From Muribaculaceae bacterium (GTDB taxonomy: Bacteria; Bacteroidota; Bacteroidia; Bacteroidales; Muribaculaceae), in the NCBI GenBank assembly GCA_029062985.1, contig JAIDPA010000150.1:1-45379 (forward strand): DNA of 45,379 nucleotides, in the 5' to 3' direction. A model generated the notes under the pieces. It was not told the origin of the DNA, did not search any database, and worked only from the letters and a program-made list of their open reading frames with translations. Positions 271-7,390 of this stretch are shown here, in pieces; position 1 is the first letter of the stretch, and each line of letters starts with the position of its first letter. The position numbers were made by a program, and so were the translations under genes.

Positions 271-2637
271 TTATGCTTGTTGAGGATAAAAACTGTTCCA
301 ATTAAGGGTATCTGTTGTGTTCAGAATAGGAAGAGGGCTATATAGCCAATTAGAACCTTTCTGCAAAATCACACCACCAAAAAGCGGCTGCTCAGTTGTT
401 GAGTTAATTTTGATATATTCAAGGAGAGCATTATGTTTATCAGTTGCAAATATATCACTTCCTGCACTTTTGGTATCGAAAAGATATATGTGTCCGTTCT
501 TCATGCGGATAACGAAGTCAACATAAAAAAGAGCCTTTTCGCCTCCTTCCCCCTTATGGTATTCAATGGCGTAGTTGGCTTTGCCGCTATCTCCATTCTT
601 ATACCACCAGTCAATATATTGTGAATTTGCTTCAAGGAATTCGACAAATTCCTTTTCGGGATTGGAAGCGGAGTTAAGTTGGATAAACGGCAAGAGTGCA
701 TGATTTTCTGCCGGGGCAACTTGGTTGGTTTCGGCATCATATACGCGCTGTTCCGGCACTTCCCATTTGTGCTCTTTATATACACGTGTTGCGGCTGCTT
801 TAGCGGCTGCTACCTGACGCTTACGCGCATATTTTTCAAGTGCCGTTTCAAGCAGACGGTCAAATTTAGGGCGGTTCTCGTGATAGAGCACCACTTTCTT
901 TGCATCGGTTTCGTAGATACCGAAAAAGTCAGCGATTAACTCCGTGAGGAAACTTGCAATCTTATCGGTGCGACCTTTGCGTTCAAACTGACCTCCCTTG
1001 CCGTCGATATAAGCAAGAAAAACACCATCAATCTCGCCGGAGGTGCGGGCGAATTTCGCGCGTTCCACCGTCAAGGTCTGCACTTCGTTTTGGAAGTGAA
1101 CGTCCTTAGGAATTTCAATGTTAATCGTCTTTACATTGAGACGGATTGAGTTCTGAACACGCCGACGATTTTCATTTATGGTTAAATCGTCAGTTTCGGG
1201 GAGCGGTTGGTATTCATCTTCATCGCCATGCATAGCGGCAAGTTCAGCAATAGAGAACAACCCGGCGCCCTGTTCGAGCTTCCAAAAGTCGGTCGCTGTG
1301 TCGTAAAGTACCCTACGGAAGTCGGGACCGAGATAATTACGCTCAATGTTAGGTCGCTCGGAATATACTGATTTCAGCGACACATTACAAAGATTGGCGC
1401 GGCGATGCGCGGTGAGCGTATCATTCAAGATGTAACCAGCATCAGCCGTTACTATATCTATCTTCTCTTTGGCGATGTCGGTATAGACGTAGCCGACGTT
1501 AAGCAATTCGTTAGGATAATGCCTTTGTTCCGGCATACGGAGTATTCGCCCTACGGTCTGAATAGTGAACTGATCGCTTTGGAGTTTACGGAAGATAAGC
1601 AGAACTGCTGCTCGCGGACAATCCCAGCCGAGAGCGATAGCCTCTTTGAACAAAAGAACCTGTGCGAGATTGTTGGGATTTTCAATCCCGGCAAGGTTTG
1701 ATTTCTCGTTAGAGAGCCAAACGGCGAGTTTACCGTTTTCTTCGGTAATATCGCACATATATTTAAGGTAAGTCTTGACCTGCTCGGCTACCTTTTCATC
1801 TTCCGTAGTCATTGACTCTTTCTTGTCGTTGGGAAGTTGAATCAGAAGCAGAGGATTGATGTAAACACCCTCGGCTTTATAAGCCTCGGCTATTTGGTTG
1901 CGCTTTTCGAGTGCTATTTTTATAAGGCGCTCGTTGAGTGCAGTTTCATTTTCGGTGCTTCTAACCTCTATTTCAGGGTTAAGCACCACCTCTTTCTTGA
2001 TCATCTCGGCTGCTATCACATCCTGACGATACACTTTTGTTCGCTCGTCCGGGAAGGCGGTTTTTGGAGTAGCCGAGATGCGCAGTTCAACTGTGGGATT
2101 GATTCGCTCAAGCACCGCCTTTGTCTTGTCGGCAGTGTTTGACCAGAACATGTGTTCCTCGTCGATCACTGCGACAATGGGTAAGCCCAGTTCTTCTTGT
2201 GTGCGTCGGGTTATCTCATATAACGATGCACTGCTCTCACTATCTCGCACCATTATATTTTTCTCCTTATTGACGCTCTCCCAATTTACAAACAGTATCT
2301 CGCCCGGTTGAATACCCTCGCTTTGGTCAAGTTCGTCAAACATCACCGGGGTAAGTTTTCTGGTTTCTCCGAAAGCCCCTTTGAGGCTCATGTAACTTTG
2401 GAGATGCAGTTTACGGGGAGCAAACCATATGAAGGCGCACTCCTTGAAACGGCTGTCGCCGCGTGTGCGTAGTTCGTCAACTATATTGGCAAGCGTCTGA
2501 CAGGCCATTACGGTTTTTCCGGCACCTGTTGGAGCCTCGAAAACAATCTTACGTCTGGAGCCTCCGAGGTTAAGCAACTTAATGGTCTTGTCGGTGAGTT
2601 CGCTGATTGCGTCCTGTTGATATATCAGTGTTTTCAT
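271..2637 (-). CDS. Type III restriction enzyme, Res (helicase/endonuclease) subunit
   Basis: 788 aa; Walker A APTGAGKT, DEEH box, SATPKT, QTVGRILRMPEQ, C-terminal PD-(D/E)xK-like ...YVDFVIRMKNGHIYLFDTKS; overlaps mod. Confidence 0.92.
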   Translation of the reverse strand: MKTLIYQQDAISELTDKTIKLLNLGGSRRKIVFEAPTGAGKTVMACQTLANIVDELRTRGDSRFKECAFIWFAPRKLHLQSYMSLKGAFGETRKLTPVMFDELDQSEGIQPGEILFVNWESVNKEKNIMVRDSESSASLYEITRRTQEELGLPIVAVIDEEHMFWSNTADKTKAVLERINPTVELRISATPKTAFPDERTKVYRQDVIAAEMIKKEVVLNPEIEVRSTENETALNERLIKIALEKRNQIAEAYKAEGVYINPLLLIQLPNDKKESMTTEDEKVAEQVKTYLKYMCDITEENGKLAVWLSNEKSNLAGIENPNNLAQVLLFKEAIALGWDCPRAAVLLIFRKLQSDQFTIQTVGRILRMPEQRHYPNELLNVGYVYTDIAKEKIDIVTADAGYILNDTLTAHRRANLCNVSLKSVYSERPNIERNYLGPDFRRVLYDTATDFWKLEQGAGLFSIAELAAMHGDEDEYQPLPETDDLTINENRRRVQNSIRLNVKTINIEIPKDVHFQNEVQTLTVERAKFARTSGEIDGVFLAYIDGKGGQFERKGRTDKIASFLTELIADFFGIYETDAKKVVLYHENRPKFDRLLETALEKYARKRQVAAAKAAATRVYKEHKWEVPEQRVYDAETNQVAPAENHALLPFIQLNSASNPEKEFVEFLEANSQYIDWWYKNGDSGKANYAIEYHKGEGGEKALFYVDFVIRMKNGHIYLFDTKSAGSDIFATDKHNALLEYIKINSTTEQPLFGGVILQKGSNWLYSPLPILNTTDTLNWNSFYPQQA

Positions 2638-4487
2638 TCGTCGCCTCCTTCCTCTGAAAATAGTCCACCAATTTCATCATCATTTTCTATAGCGAGTGCA
2701 TCTTCTTCCTCTGATTCGAGCGGTTTACGCTTCGGTTTCGGAAGGATGCGCTTGTAAGTGTTGTAAATAGCCTGCGGTAAGGCGCAAAGTTCAACTTTGT
2801 CGTTGACCGGCTCGAAACTTGCCTCCCACGGGTCCTCACTCGGAGAGAATACATAGACCTTAATCTTCGAGTCGGTTTCCACCTTTTCTATCATCTTGAC
2901 GATTTCATCTACATATCGTTCGTCATATATAATGAGCATTTTCTTATTGCCATGCTCGAAGTAACGATATATGTTTTTGAAGGTCGGCAGACCGGCAAAA
3001 GTCTTCTTCTCTGCATAAAGGTTTTCCTTGATGCAGAGCATATCGGTAGAGAGTTGAACTAAGCAACGCATATTTTTGGTGGAGCGACTGCGTCCTACAA
3101 AGTCAGTGCGATAGTAGCGGAGATTATTGTTGTGAAGTCCCTCTACGTACTCGCCATTCGGTTTCGTATAGCCCTCGATAACACGCTTGTTTCGCTCGTA
3201 AGTAACATTCTCGCAGATACCATTTTCATTGTTGGTGCAGAGAATACATGTACGATTACCTCCATCTTCGGCATTAAGTTGCATGACAGCGTGAAGCGTA
3301 GTGCCTGAACCTGCGAAGAAGTCAATAACGGTAACCGCTTTATTGAAATAGCTATTTGCTAATATCAATTTTTTAACCAAATTTACTGGTTTAGAATATT
3401 GGAATGGTCTATCTGTTGCAAAAACTTCTTTTAGAAGTTCATAGGCATCTTCATTTGTAGCACCTTCTTCTCGTCCGTCTATAAATGAGGGCATTGCTTT
3501 AATGGATTCATTATTATGCCGTATGACACGAACTTGGAAATTTTTAGTGTTAACAATGACCTCAGTGCCATTTTTTAGTTCTTGTTCAAGAAATTCTTGA
3601 CCCCATACAAAAGGTGCTTTTATTTTTACTGGAGTAATAAATGTTCCTCCTTTAGCAATTACATCTTCTATAAGTTCGCTCGCACTCGTACCTACACCAT
3701 AAACACCTTTTTTATATACTCCATCAGGGAGTTTTGTCTTAATTATATTTGGAGGGAAAGTAAGAACTTTAGCAGTATTGGTTCTTTTAATAATAGGTTG
3801 CGATTCACTATTCCTGGGTAACCCACCAAATAACTGAATGTTTGGATTGCGGGTATAAATCAGGATATATTCTGTTAGAGATACGACTTTATTAGAAAGA
3901 AAAGATCCTTTTCTTTTCTTAAACCAGACCAATTGACCTACAAACTTATTCCCACCAAATCCGTAATCAGGATCATCGCAAAGAAGTTTCAAATTGGCTT
4001 GTTCGTTATCATCTATGGAGATGAATATAACGCCATTTTCACTAAGTAGTTTTTTTGCAATGCGGAGACGTTTAGACATAAACGACAGCCATTTTGAATG
4101 ACGGTAGCTATCCTCGTTATCAACGTAAGAGTCGTTATAGACGAAGTCTTTGTTGCCAGTATTATAAGGAGGATCTATATAGATTACGTCGATTTTCCCT
4201 GCGTGGGTGTACGCGAGGGTGGCAAGGGCTTCGAGGTTGTCCCCCTCGATTAGAATATGGTTAGGCGCATCAGGACCCGCCTCAGTCAATGCACGGTCTT
4301 TATCCTCTACAAGTATAGGAAGCTCTTCGCGTAGACGTTCCTCCACGGCTTCCGGTTTATCCTCCCATACAAGTCCGTAAGTTTTATGTTCGCGCAATAG
4401 TCCGAGAAGAGCAGAACGTTCATCATCTGTAAGTCCCTTAATAGTCTTTATACGCTCAATCAGTTTGTGTCGGTCAGTCGCTTTCAT
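2634..4487 (-). CDS. Type III DNA-methyltransferase, Mod subunit (beta-class N6-adenine)
   Basis: 617 aa; DPPYNTGNKDF catalytic motif followed later by DFFAGSGTT SAM motif; operonic with res. Confidence 0.93.
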   Translation of the reverse strand: MKATDRHKLIERIKTIKGLTDDERSALLGLLREHKTYGLVWEDKPEAVEERLREELPILVEDKDRALTEAGPDAPNHILIEGDNLEALATLAYTHAGKIDVIYIDPPYNTGNKDFVYNDSYVDNEDSYRHSKWLSFMSKRLRIAKKLLSENGVIFISIDDNEQANLKLLCDDPDYGFGGNKFVGQLVWFKKRKGSFLSNKVVSLTEYILIYTRNPNIQLFGGLPRNSESQPIIKRTNTAKVLTFPPNIIKTKLPDGVYKKGVYGVGTSASELIEDVIAKGGTFITPVKIKAPFVWGQEFLEQELKNGTEVIVNTKNFQVRVIRHNNESIKAMPSFIDGREEGATNEDAYELLKEVFATDRPFQYSKPVNLVKKLILANSYFNKAVTVIDFFAGSGTTLHAVMQLNAEDGGNRTCILCTNNENGICENVTYERNKRVIEGYTKPNGEYVEGLHNNNLRYYRTDFVGRSRSTKNMRCLVQLSTDMLCIKENLYAEKKTFAGLPTFKNIYRYFEHGNKKMLIIYDERYVDEIVKMIEKVETDSKIKVYVFSPSEDPWEASFEPVNDKVELCALPQAIYNTYKRILPKPKRKPLESEEEDALAIENDDEIGGLFSEEGGDE

Positions 4488-4526
4488 GGAGATTCAAAAG
4501 AATCGCGGACTCTCCTCGCAATCAGT

Positions 4527-4776
4527 CTGGCAGGTTTATAAAAAAGACGTGAGAGTCTGTACTTCGCATATCTGTTCAATAGTGGTACCTGCCAGGGAAA
4601 CCCTTACAACCAGATTAGCTTTTCGAGACCTCACGCCGGTATATAACTATCCCAAACCCACTCCATGCCAATGAAGGCACAGAATGAGCCGGATAGGTAA
4701 ATACATACCCGTGAGCATCTACTTTAGCATTATTCCTGGTTGTAAATTCAAAAACTGGCAGGTTTTCTATTGAACA
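4527..4776 (-). ncRNA. Structured RNA element/leader upstream of mod
   Basis: Nested exact complements: TGTTCAATAG 4573-4582/CTATTGAACA 4767-4776; CCTGCCAG 4588-4595/CTGGCAGG 4755-4762; TTACAACCAG 4604-4613/CTGGTTGTAA 4736-4745; CTCACG 4630-4635/CGTGAG 4710-4715; GGTAT 4638-4642/ATACC 4705-4709; CTATCC 4647-4652/GGATAG 4691-4696; TGCC/GGCA hairpin 4666-4679. Confidence 0.7.
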
Positions 4777-4843
4777 AGAATAAAGCGCGAGTAAACGCCT
4801 TTTACATTAATTAAACTCCCACCACGTTTCCTCTCTCGAAACC

Positions 4844-4900
4844 CGTCGGCGTGAGTCTTTCCGCAAAGTTAATAACTTTCCCCCATTTTACCCCCAAAAT
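4844..4900 (-). repeat. Shared promoter repeat, copy A (upstream of RNA element and mod/res)
   Basis: GGCGTGAGTCTTTCCGCAAAGTTAATAACTTTCCCCCATTTTACCCCC; minus strand carries TAACTTTG (-7 TAnnTTTG). Confidence 0.85.
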
Positions 4901-5012
4901 ACCTCGGAAAATATCTCCTTAATTTCTTCCTTTTCTCAATTATAGACGTGTTCTTACCGGAAACCAAATAAAAATTACTAATTTTTTGACCTTTTATAAA
5001 AATTTCAATGAA

Positions 5013-5047
5013 AATTAGACAATTTTTGATGAAAAATTTGTCTAATT
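5013..5047. repeat. Near-perfect inverted repeat
   Basis: AATTAGACAATTTTT-GATG-AAAAATTTGTCTAATT (one-nt bulge). Confidence 0.8.
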
Positions 5048-5068
5048 AAAAAAAAAATCTCAATTTTG
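5037..5068 (+). promoter_or_regulatory. Bacteroidetes-type promoter
   Basis: TTTG (5037-5040), 20-nt spacer, CAATTTTG (5061-5068), one mismatch to TAnnTTTG. Confidence 0.5.
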
Positions 5069-5073
5069 CATTT

Positions 5074-5147
5074 GAAAAGCGCTTCATTAACCGAAAGGCT
5101 ACGTTTGACCGTAGTTGATTAGATGTAGGTTAATTGAGCGTTTTTTT
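5074..5147 (+). ncRNA. Candidate small RNA / terminator hairpin
   Basis: CGCTtcATTAACC (5080-5092) pairs with GGTTAATtgAGCG (5128-5140), then T7; inner hairpin CTACG-tttgac-CGTAG (5099-5114); promoter just upstream. Confidence 0.5.
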
Positions 5148-5970
5148 ATGGCTTTGCCTGTGAATAATCGCGACAATAATTACTTGGTTTAAATGACCAA
5201 TGCCGGTAAGGATATGTCCATTTATCTTTATATGACTGAATCCCCGTACTTACGCCTATATTGAAATTAGGTTTCAATTCATATATTTTTGAGAGAATGT
5301 ATTTATAAAGTTTTTCTTTTAAAACAGTGCGTTTCCCTCTTTTTCCGGTATCCGGTTGCTTGATTTTATGTTTATTATTGAGTCGGAAACACATTGCACC
5401 TAAAATAAGATCCAACAATTGTAAAGGAAGATGCTTGGATGAATCCACTTCAATAATATCATTCTCTTCAATTCGTATCTTATTAGCTTTAAAATTTACA
5501 TCGTTATTAAGATTAAGTATGTATTTCTTGAATTGTTCTACCTGAGAACCTCTTGCAGGAATATCGTCAATATATAACCTTACTCTCCTTTCATTCTCCG
5601 GCCAATCACAATATTTTAGACCAAATCCATGTTTTATGAATTCATAATAAAGAATTGTGAACTCATTTTCTTTGTGTCCTTCTGTAAGATAAACAGCCTT
5701 AAATTGATTGTTATGAAAGAAGATCCTTATCTTGGCATATCCTTTTTTTAGAATGTCAAAAATAAAGTCAACGATTCTAATATATTTTTCATAAGTGTAA
5801 CCATTAACCTTTTGCCATTTAATCTCCTCCTTAATACCTATTTCCTCACAAAGCTGAGTCAGATTAGAAATTATCTCCTCATAGTAGATACTATTTATAA
5901 GAATCCCACCATAAAAATTTGAAAAGTAGGCTCCTTTCTTATCACTTTCGTCTAACCAAATATATATCAT
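5146..5970 (-). CDS. DUF3800 domain-containing protein
   Basis: 274 aa; N-terminal MIYIWLDESDKKGAYFSNFYGGILI, internal YIDD and LQLLDLILGA typical of DUF3800. Confidence 0.75.
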   Translation of the reverse strand: MIYIWLDESDKKGAYFSNFYGGILINSIYYEEIISNLTQLCEEIGIKEEIKWQKVNGYTYEKYIRIVDFIFDILKKGYAKIRIFFHNNQFKAVYLTEGHKENEFTILYYEFIKHGFGLKYCDWPENERRVRLYIDDIPARGSQVEQFKKYILNLNNDVNFKANKIRIEENDIIEVDSSKHLPLQLLDLILGAMCFRLNNKHKIKQPDTGKRGKRTVLKEKLYKYILSKIYELKPNFNIGVSTGIQSYKDKWTYPYRHWSFKPSNYCRDYSQAKP

Positions 5971-6070: not shown

Positions 6071-6126
6071 CGTCGGCGTGAGTCTTTCCACAAAGTTAAT
6101 AACTTTCCCCCATTTTACCCCAAAAA
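6071..6126 (-). repeat. Shared promoter repeat, copy B (upstream of DUF3800 gene)
   Basis: CGTCGGCGTGAGTCTTTCCACAAAGTTAATAACTTTCCCCCATTTTACCCC. Confidence 0.85.
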
Positions 6127-6571: not shown

Positions 6572-6630
6572 GCCGGCGTGAGTCTTTCCGCAAAGTTAAT
6601 AACTTTCCCTCATTTTACCCCCAAAATACC
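6572..6630 (-). repeat. Shared promoter repeat, copy C (upstream of MNT gene)
   Basis: GCCGGCGTGAGTCTTTCCGCAAAGTTAATAACTTTCCCTCATTTTACCCCC. Confidence 0.85.
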
Positions 6631-7332: not shown

Positions 7333-7390
7333 CAGCGTGAGTCTTTCCGCAAAGTTAATAACTTTCCACCATTTTAACCCCAAATACCTT
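7333..7390 (-). repeat. Shared promoter repeat, copy D (upstream of mntA-hepT)
   Basis: CAGCGTGAGTCTTTCCGCAAAGTTAATAACTTTCCACCATTTTAACCCCAAATACC. Confidence 0.85.

Follow-up and report, generated by a model that had tools for sequence, protein, structure and literature searches.

Introduction

In the antisense RNA attenuators that control plasmid copy number, complementary hypervariable hairpin loops set the specificity types, and control is exerted by attenuation. Attenuator leaders carry mutually exclusive antiterminator and terminator helices in the 5' leader, with a U-run before the gene. In the ToxIN type III antitoxin, a structured RNA with a terminator lies just upstream of a defence gene. 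Bacteroidales-1 (RF01693) and 6S-Flavo (RF01685) are structured RNAs from Bacteroidetes, and 6S RNA (RF00013) is present in one or few copies per genome. FopS/GibS is a multi-copy Bacteroidales RNA family with a terminator (PMC11697453). FopS has a single-stranded 5' seed and one terminator hairpin, acts in trans on susC and is described as deposited in Rfam (PMC11697453).

Here we analysed an element upstream of a type III methyltransferase gene, mod, in a 45,379-nt stretch of DNA from a Muribaculaceae bacterium (the whole stretch is termed the window). The element shares with attenuator leaders all three features given above. Unlike them, it is hundreds of nucleotides long, and we identified in it no leader peptide, tRNA site or known ligand. 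It has long-range hypervariable helices (V) and an additional pairing between the predicted terminator 3' arm (T) and a leader loop, and one genome may carry many copies, each before a different kind of gene. As in the plasmid copy-control RNAs, its complementary hypervariable hairpin loops fall into types; in contrast to them, both loops lie within one predicted transcript, and the copies precede defence and surface genes on contigs of the chromosome. It resembles FopS/GibS in copy number and terminator, but its 5' region is heavily structured, unlike that in the published description of FopS, and it matched no Rfam family. It differs from ToxIN in that no tandem repeats were seen on inspection, in that mod and not ToxN follows in the window, and in that the downstream genes are varied.

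Structure of the element in the window

A preliminary description of the locus had proposed a multi-helix RNA at 4491-4776 with competing pairings. The seven nested helix pairs that it placed within 4573-4776 were all exact reverse complements, and so was the pair GACTCTC (4508-4514) and GAGAGTC (4551-4557). The second CTGGCAGG at 4527 was confirmed, and additional CGTGAG copies were found too. The competing pairings proved real and covaried throughout the family. The extent had been set too small, as the RNA runs from a promoter near 4871 to the U-run at 4540-4545. A weak local hairpin with a U-run had been suggested at 4540-4558; the U-run stood, but the mainly local hairpin did not, and T (4546-4558) instead formed, with P (about 4618-4637) as the 5' arm, the 3' side of a long predicted terminator hairpin. 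The minus strand from 4565 to 4785 folded at −94 kcal/mol (z −8.5), and 0 of 200 dinucleotide shuffles were as good; the plus-strand fold was weaker (z −5.2 over 313 nt). A long hairpin arising by chance was ruled out by the z-scores together with covariation. The parts of the RNA are listed in Table 1.

Table 1. Parts of the RNA and downstream genes, in window coordinates.
Feature	Position	Strand	Basis or remark
Putative promoter −7 box TAACTTTG, Bacteroides-type TAnnTTTG, for RNA and mod	4864-4871	−	Sequence reading
5' stem-loop, AGACUCACGCC (4848-4858) with GGUGGGAGUUU (4813-4823)	4813-4858	−	Inspection; homologues have an equivalent stem
R hairpin AAAGGCGUUUACUCGCGCUUU	4782-4802	−	Conserved
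GGCGUUUACU of R hairpin; alternative partner is the 3' half of Q (R:Q')			Cognate test, z −3.0
Helix V1, 5' strand	4767-4776	−	Partner 4573-4582, exact complement; V strands covary
Small hairpin H5, AAAA CCUGCCAG UUUU	4751-4766	−	
V2, loop of H5	4755-4762	−	Complementary to H3 loop
Helix V3, 5' strand	4735-4746	−	Partner about 4604-4615
Q, 5' flank of core; partner of P in the predicted read-through fold	4711-4729	−	Cognate test, pair counts
Apical core hairpin, common to both folds	4638-4710	−	MFE, alignment A1, pair counts
P, shared strand; partner Q (antiterminator) or T (terminator)	4618-4637	−	Cognate test, forced-fold energies
Helix V3, 3' strand	4604-4613	−	Exact complement, covariation
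V2' CUGGCAGG, loop of small hairpin H3	4588-4595	−	
Helix V1, 3' strand	4573-4582	−	Exact complement, covariation
T AGACUCUCACGUC, terminator 3' arm; alternative partner is leader loop 4508-4514	4546-4558	−	Cognate tests
U-run of predicted intrinsic terminator	4540-4545	−	
Second V2 copy (CCUGCCAG) in mod leader	4527-4534	−	Covaries with V2 in the window's sub-clade
Leader ('tail') hairpin; loop GAGAGUC (4508-4514) complementary to T	4500-4523	−	T:tail test
mod, type III DNA methyltransferase, downstream gene	2634-4487	−	Pfam N6_N4_Mtase, E 4e-32; PADLOC MTase_III
res	271-2637		After mod

Distribution and conserved anatomy

The element is one copy of an undescribed, predicted RNA family of about 300 nt. 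A DNA search of related genomes returned the window itself and 14 other places. R1, a covariance model of the core, gave strong matches in many genomes of the window's genus, and a broader model, R3, found 13 copies in the window's own genome. R3 matches occurred in at least 28 of 340 Bacteroidales genomes (21 genera) and in all five sampled from the window's own family; among 399 genomes drawn from the whole phylum, the window's own genome alone matched. Non-identical close copies numbered 56, mostly from Muribaculaceae-type genomes. Among 85,488 species genomes, a pattern scan picked out 54 stretches, most of them labelled Muribaculaceae, Porphyromonadaceae or other Bacteroidales. Counts from the large genome searches are lower bounds, because strict filters were applied and few candidates were scored per genome. 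Weak R1 matches (25-55 bits) were genuine members with the same anatomy when inspected by eye, except L170, which is likely false. Four loci labelled as Pseudoflavonifractor or Clostridium MAG (L072, L076, L106, L117) are probably mis-binned Bacteroidales contigs. These searches support a Bacteroidales-specific RNA class, one of the two readings first offered for the locus.

Rfam 15 gave no match in the window. The region 4400-5150, at E up to 5, returned nothing except two chance eukaryotic matches, and 17 homologous loci returned nothing except chance microRNA matches; a confident match to an unrelated known family was not among them. We found no description of the RNA family in the open-licence literature. 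It does not appear to be described in the texts of the FopS paper PMC11697453, of PMC2864571 on Bacteroidales-1 and 6S-Flavo, of the B. thetaiotaomicron transcriptome map PMC7366714 or of the human-microbiome survey PMC8040213 (main text); an unnamed candidate in the supplementary tables may overlap with it.

The copies typically had the same order of parts. Promoter TAnnTTTG, 5' stem and R hairpin (AAAGCGUUUAC..) were followed by a 5' arm (UUCUUG..CAAGAA) holding V1, the small hairpin H5 and V3; next came Q (GCAACGGUAGAUGCC), the apical core hairpin and P (GGCGUGGGCUUCUGCGUUGC), and then the 3' arm (V3', hairpin H3, V1'), T, the U-run, the leader loop and the start codon. Nucleotide conservation was seen in Q and P and at the base of the core, and the apical core was very variable between subtypes. 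Of 98 copies, 88 carried TAnnTTTG at 110-210 nt upstream of Q, versus 18/358 control windows. A U-run followed 55-125 nt past P in 93/98 copies versus 198/560 control windows, and its placement was tight (65-76 nt past P, 5-95 percentile). An ORF on the same strand started 70-260 nt past P in 89/98 copies (median 127 nt), compared with 22/98 on the opposite side. The window has no TAnnTTTG between the U-run of the terminator and the mod ATG. Some copies (L145, L160) had no clear gene downstream, and others (L099, L115_702) had lost parts. At L115 (683-2494), two copies were 1.7 kb apart, the first without U-run or adjacent gene; this is a duplication or a decaying copy.

Mutually exclusive pairings

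Comparison of the copies established covariation of the V, Q:P, P:T and T:tail pairings, alongside the anatomy, promoter motif, U-run and gene placement; covariation across homologues had been named in the preliminary description as a check on the fold. In the cognate test, the duplex energy of true partners was compared with that of partners shuffled among representative copies (93 copies). The V strands were strongly cognate-specific (z −34), as were Q:P (z −8.7), P:T (z −7.8) and T:tail, i.e. T with the leader loop (z −5.2). For R:Q' the value was z −3.0. Control pairs that the model does not predict gave no signal in the same test (P:tail, z 0.3; Q:T, z 1.6). The V pairing was kept over 18 unrelated V types among 50 close copies (−30.1 versus −13.2 kcal/mol when shuffled). 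For many helices the test was one of duplex energy and not of a single curated alignment, and copies that are related do not count as fully independent.

RNAalifold gave no pairs on the diverse alignment A3, and the Q:P pairs were therefore set by hand in R3. In 99 distinct copies, in an alignment fitted to the model, Q:P had 99 cells changed on both sides versus 42 in shuffles, and its covariation score was 0.286 versus 0.220 shuffled, far above slid versions. The core hairpin in alignment A1 gave pair counts like those of Q:P. Q:P and P:T share strand P and both were cognate-specific, as in an antiterminator that excludes a terminator. When each arm was folded alone, the V2 segments were mostly unpaired (0.67 and 0.70 versus 0.43 and 0.55 for V1/V3), in keeping with a place in hairpin loops. 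The V2 copy in the mod leader tracked V2 through three variants, CCUGCCAG, CCGACCA and CCGGCCA (L001, L034, L117, L002, L072, L044, L086).

Predicted terminator and fold energies

A predicted intrinsic terminator lies between the promoter and the gene, which by sequence alone is the arrangement of an attenuator. In 93 members, the P:T stem had a median length of 19 bp and a median distance to the U-run of 0 nt. Forcing the P:T terminator fold placed the RNA 2-18 kcal/mol above the read-through or unconstrained fold (median 10), in an energy model that leaves out kissing loops and co-transcriptional order. The cost was 14.4 kcal/mol in the window copy and 0.8 kcal/mol in L008. Under this nearest-neighbour model the read-through fold is preferred for most copies, which counts against the attenuator reading. 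The two folds are best read as near-balanced in an attenuator leader. The forced terminator fold also contained R:Q' and the 5' arm, and we therefore regard it as a complete alternative architecture.

Downstream genes and V types

An attenuator-like leader for the type III restriction-modification system had been the other reading first offered. The attenuator part of it agrees with the pairings, but the restriction to mod does not hold, as homologues are not always beside mod: several are upstream of mod and several elsewhere. Copies preceded several type III Mod subfamilies, HKD-Snf2 helicases, HsdM, PsyrA-like proteins and DUF4391. In the window's own genome they were followed by mod, by a C10 peptidase and BspA/LRR proteins, by a VWA protein and a PD-(D/E)XK protein, and by a ZorA-like channel (at L152, a ZorA-like MotA/ExbB protein) and secreted proteins; elsewhere, by GmrSD, AbiGi and another Mod. 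At five loci (L088, L129, L133, L138, L139) the gene after the RNA encoded a small membrane protein of one and the same family (about 213 aa, MNPLLGSSLYDSLNRLVIGFLL..), and no Pfam match was found in the two members scanned (L088 and L129). A restriction to mod or defence genes was ruled out by the many downstream genes for BspA/LRR proteins, C10 peptidases and proteins of unknown kind.

In the mod alignments, the target-recognition region of Mod (TRD; columns 195-490) was hypervariable between conserved flanks and was swapped between species. That of L086 was 98% identical to the window's, while those of other close Mods were about 12-25% identical. The idea that the V loops encode Mod target specificity was ruled out, as TRD identity was 0.22 both within and between V types. 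The varied downstream genes and the independence of the TRD indicate that the family is a leader of accessory genes and not a part of the type III system.

The V helices were hypervariable and fell into discrete types, which recurred within the window's own genome (UUCUCGCA four times, CUUCGCA five times). Strict insulation with one V type per genome is unsupported given these repeats, and cross-talk in trans is thus possible. A 28-nt sequence comprising the promoter and transcript start, GTTATTAACTTTGCGGAAAGACTCACGC, was found on the minus strand at 4849-4876, 6076-6103, 6576-6603 and 7335-7362, and within the window's own genome at these four sites only. The copies precede the RNA-mod unit, DUF3800, a nucleotidyltransferase and a HepT/MNT pair, the later ones without the rest of the RNA.

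Discussion

We read the element as one member of a family of Bacteroidales RNAs working in cis as transcription-attenuator leaders, with a probability of roughly 0.6. It is best read as controlling accessory genes and not mod alone. A switch is suggested because the conserved order Q-P-T-leader, with its shared strands, is what a terminator and antiterminator require. Transcription would begin at the RNA's own promoter. Fold Y would use the long-range V1, V2 and V3 helices to bring Q onto P and keep P from T; no terminator would form, polymerase would read into mod, and T would then pair with the loop of the mod leader. Fold X would instead have its 5' arm closed on itself with H5, Q covered by R, and P:T formed directly before the U-run, ending transcription and releasing a free RNA of about 300 nt. 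The complementary V2 loops of H5 and H3 may kiss in X, which could seed the change to Y. The V helices would form early and favour read-through, and disturbing them would let P:T form; a ligand, a protein, a ribosome or an RNA of the same V type are candidates for this. We infer termination, exchange of the folds in the cell, expression of mod through read-through and a signal that shifts the balance.

It is rather unlikely that the RNA is a free-standing sRNA acting in trans, whose terminated product of 300 nt pairs with other RNAs through its variable loops, the gene being a neighbour reached by read-through. Nearly all copies have their own promoter motif and terminator, a terminated product of about 300 nt with exposed complementary loops would fit, several copies have V types in common, and multi-copy sRNA families such as FopS are known in Bacteroides (PMC11697453). 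However, the same-strand gene stands at a nearly fixed distance in 89/98 copies, and T covaries with leader sequence on the far side of the terminator (z −5.2), a pairing for which a stand-alone sRNA would have no need. Returning to the attenuator leader, we consider it unlikely, though conceivable, that the V loops serve as addresses by which RNAs of the same type recognise each other in trans through kissing. If so, copies of the same type would make up regulons built of RNA alone, in which defence and surface genes are switched together, and the terminated RNA would feed back on nascent leaders.

A ligand-binding riboswitch, in which the conserved core senses a small molecule and the V helices tune the balance, would suit the two-state terminator design and the conserved nucleotides in Q, P and the core base. 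The great variability of the apical core between subtypes and the lack of a common metabolic theme among the downstream genes make it quite improbable. Still less probable is an element that matters as DNA, such as a mobile hairpin or recombination site travelling with accessory genes. Copies do stand before accessory, often horizontally moving genes, and the promoter start occurs four times in the window; yet the conserved promoter, U-run and alternative pairings are unexpected for DNA hairpins, as are the G-U pairs frequent in conserved helices (U-G 62, U-G 43 and G-U 35 cells), and no window-type sequence was found in the phages, plasmids or viral contigs searched. The 6S RNA or Bacteroidales-1 identity raised in the preliminary description, to which the long paired ends and the Bacteroidales host had pointed, can be dismissed, as the covariance models of RF01693, RF01685 and RF00013 matched neither the window nor the 17 loci, Rfam gave no match at a useful score, and 13 copies lie in one genome.

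With two conserved folds and interchangeable variable helices, an attenuator leader of this kind makes the question of switching directly testable in cultured Muribaculaceae. To our knowledge, little is known about the regulation of defence genes. The family would place accessory genes of gut Bacteroidales, among them those for restriction-modification, Zorya-like, Snf2, AbiGi and GmrSD proteins and for secreted proteins, under one common layer of control.
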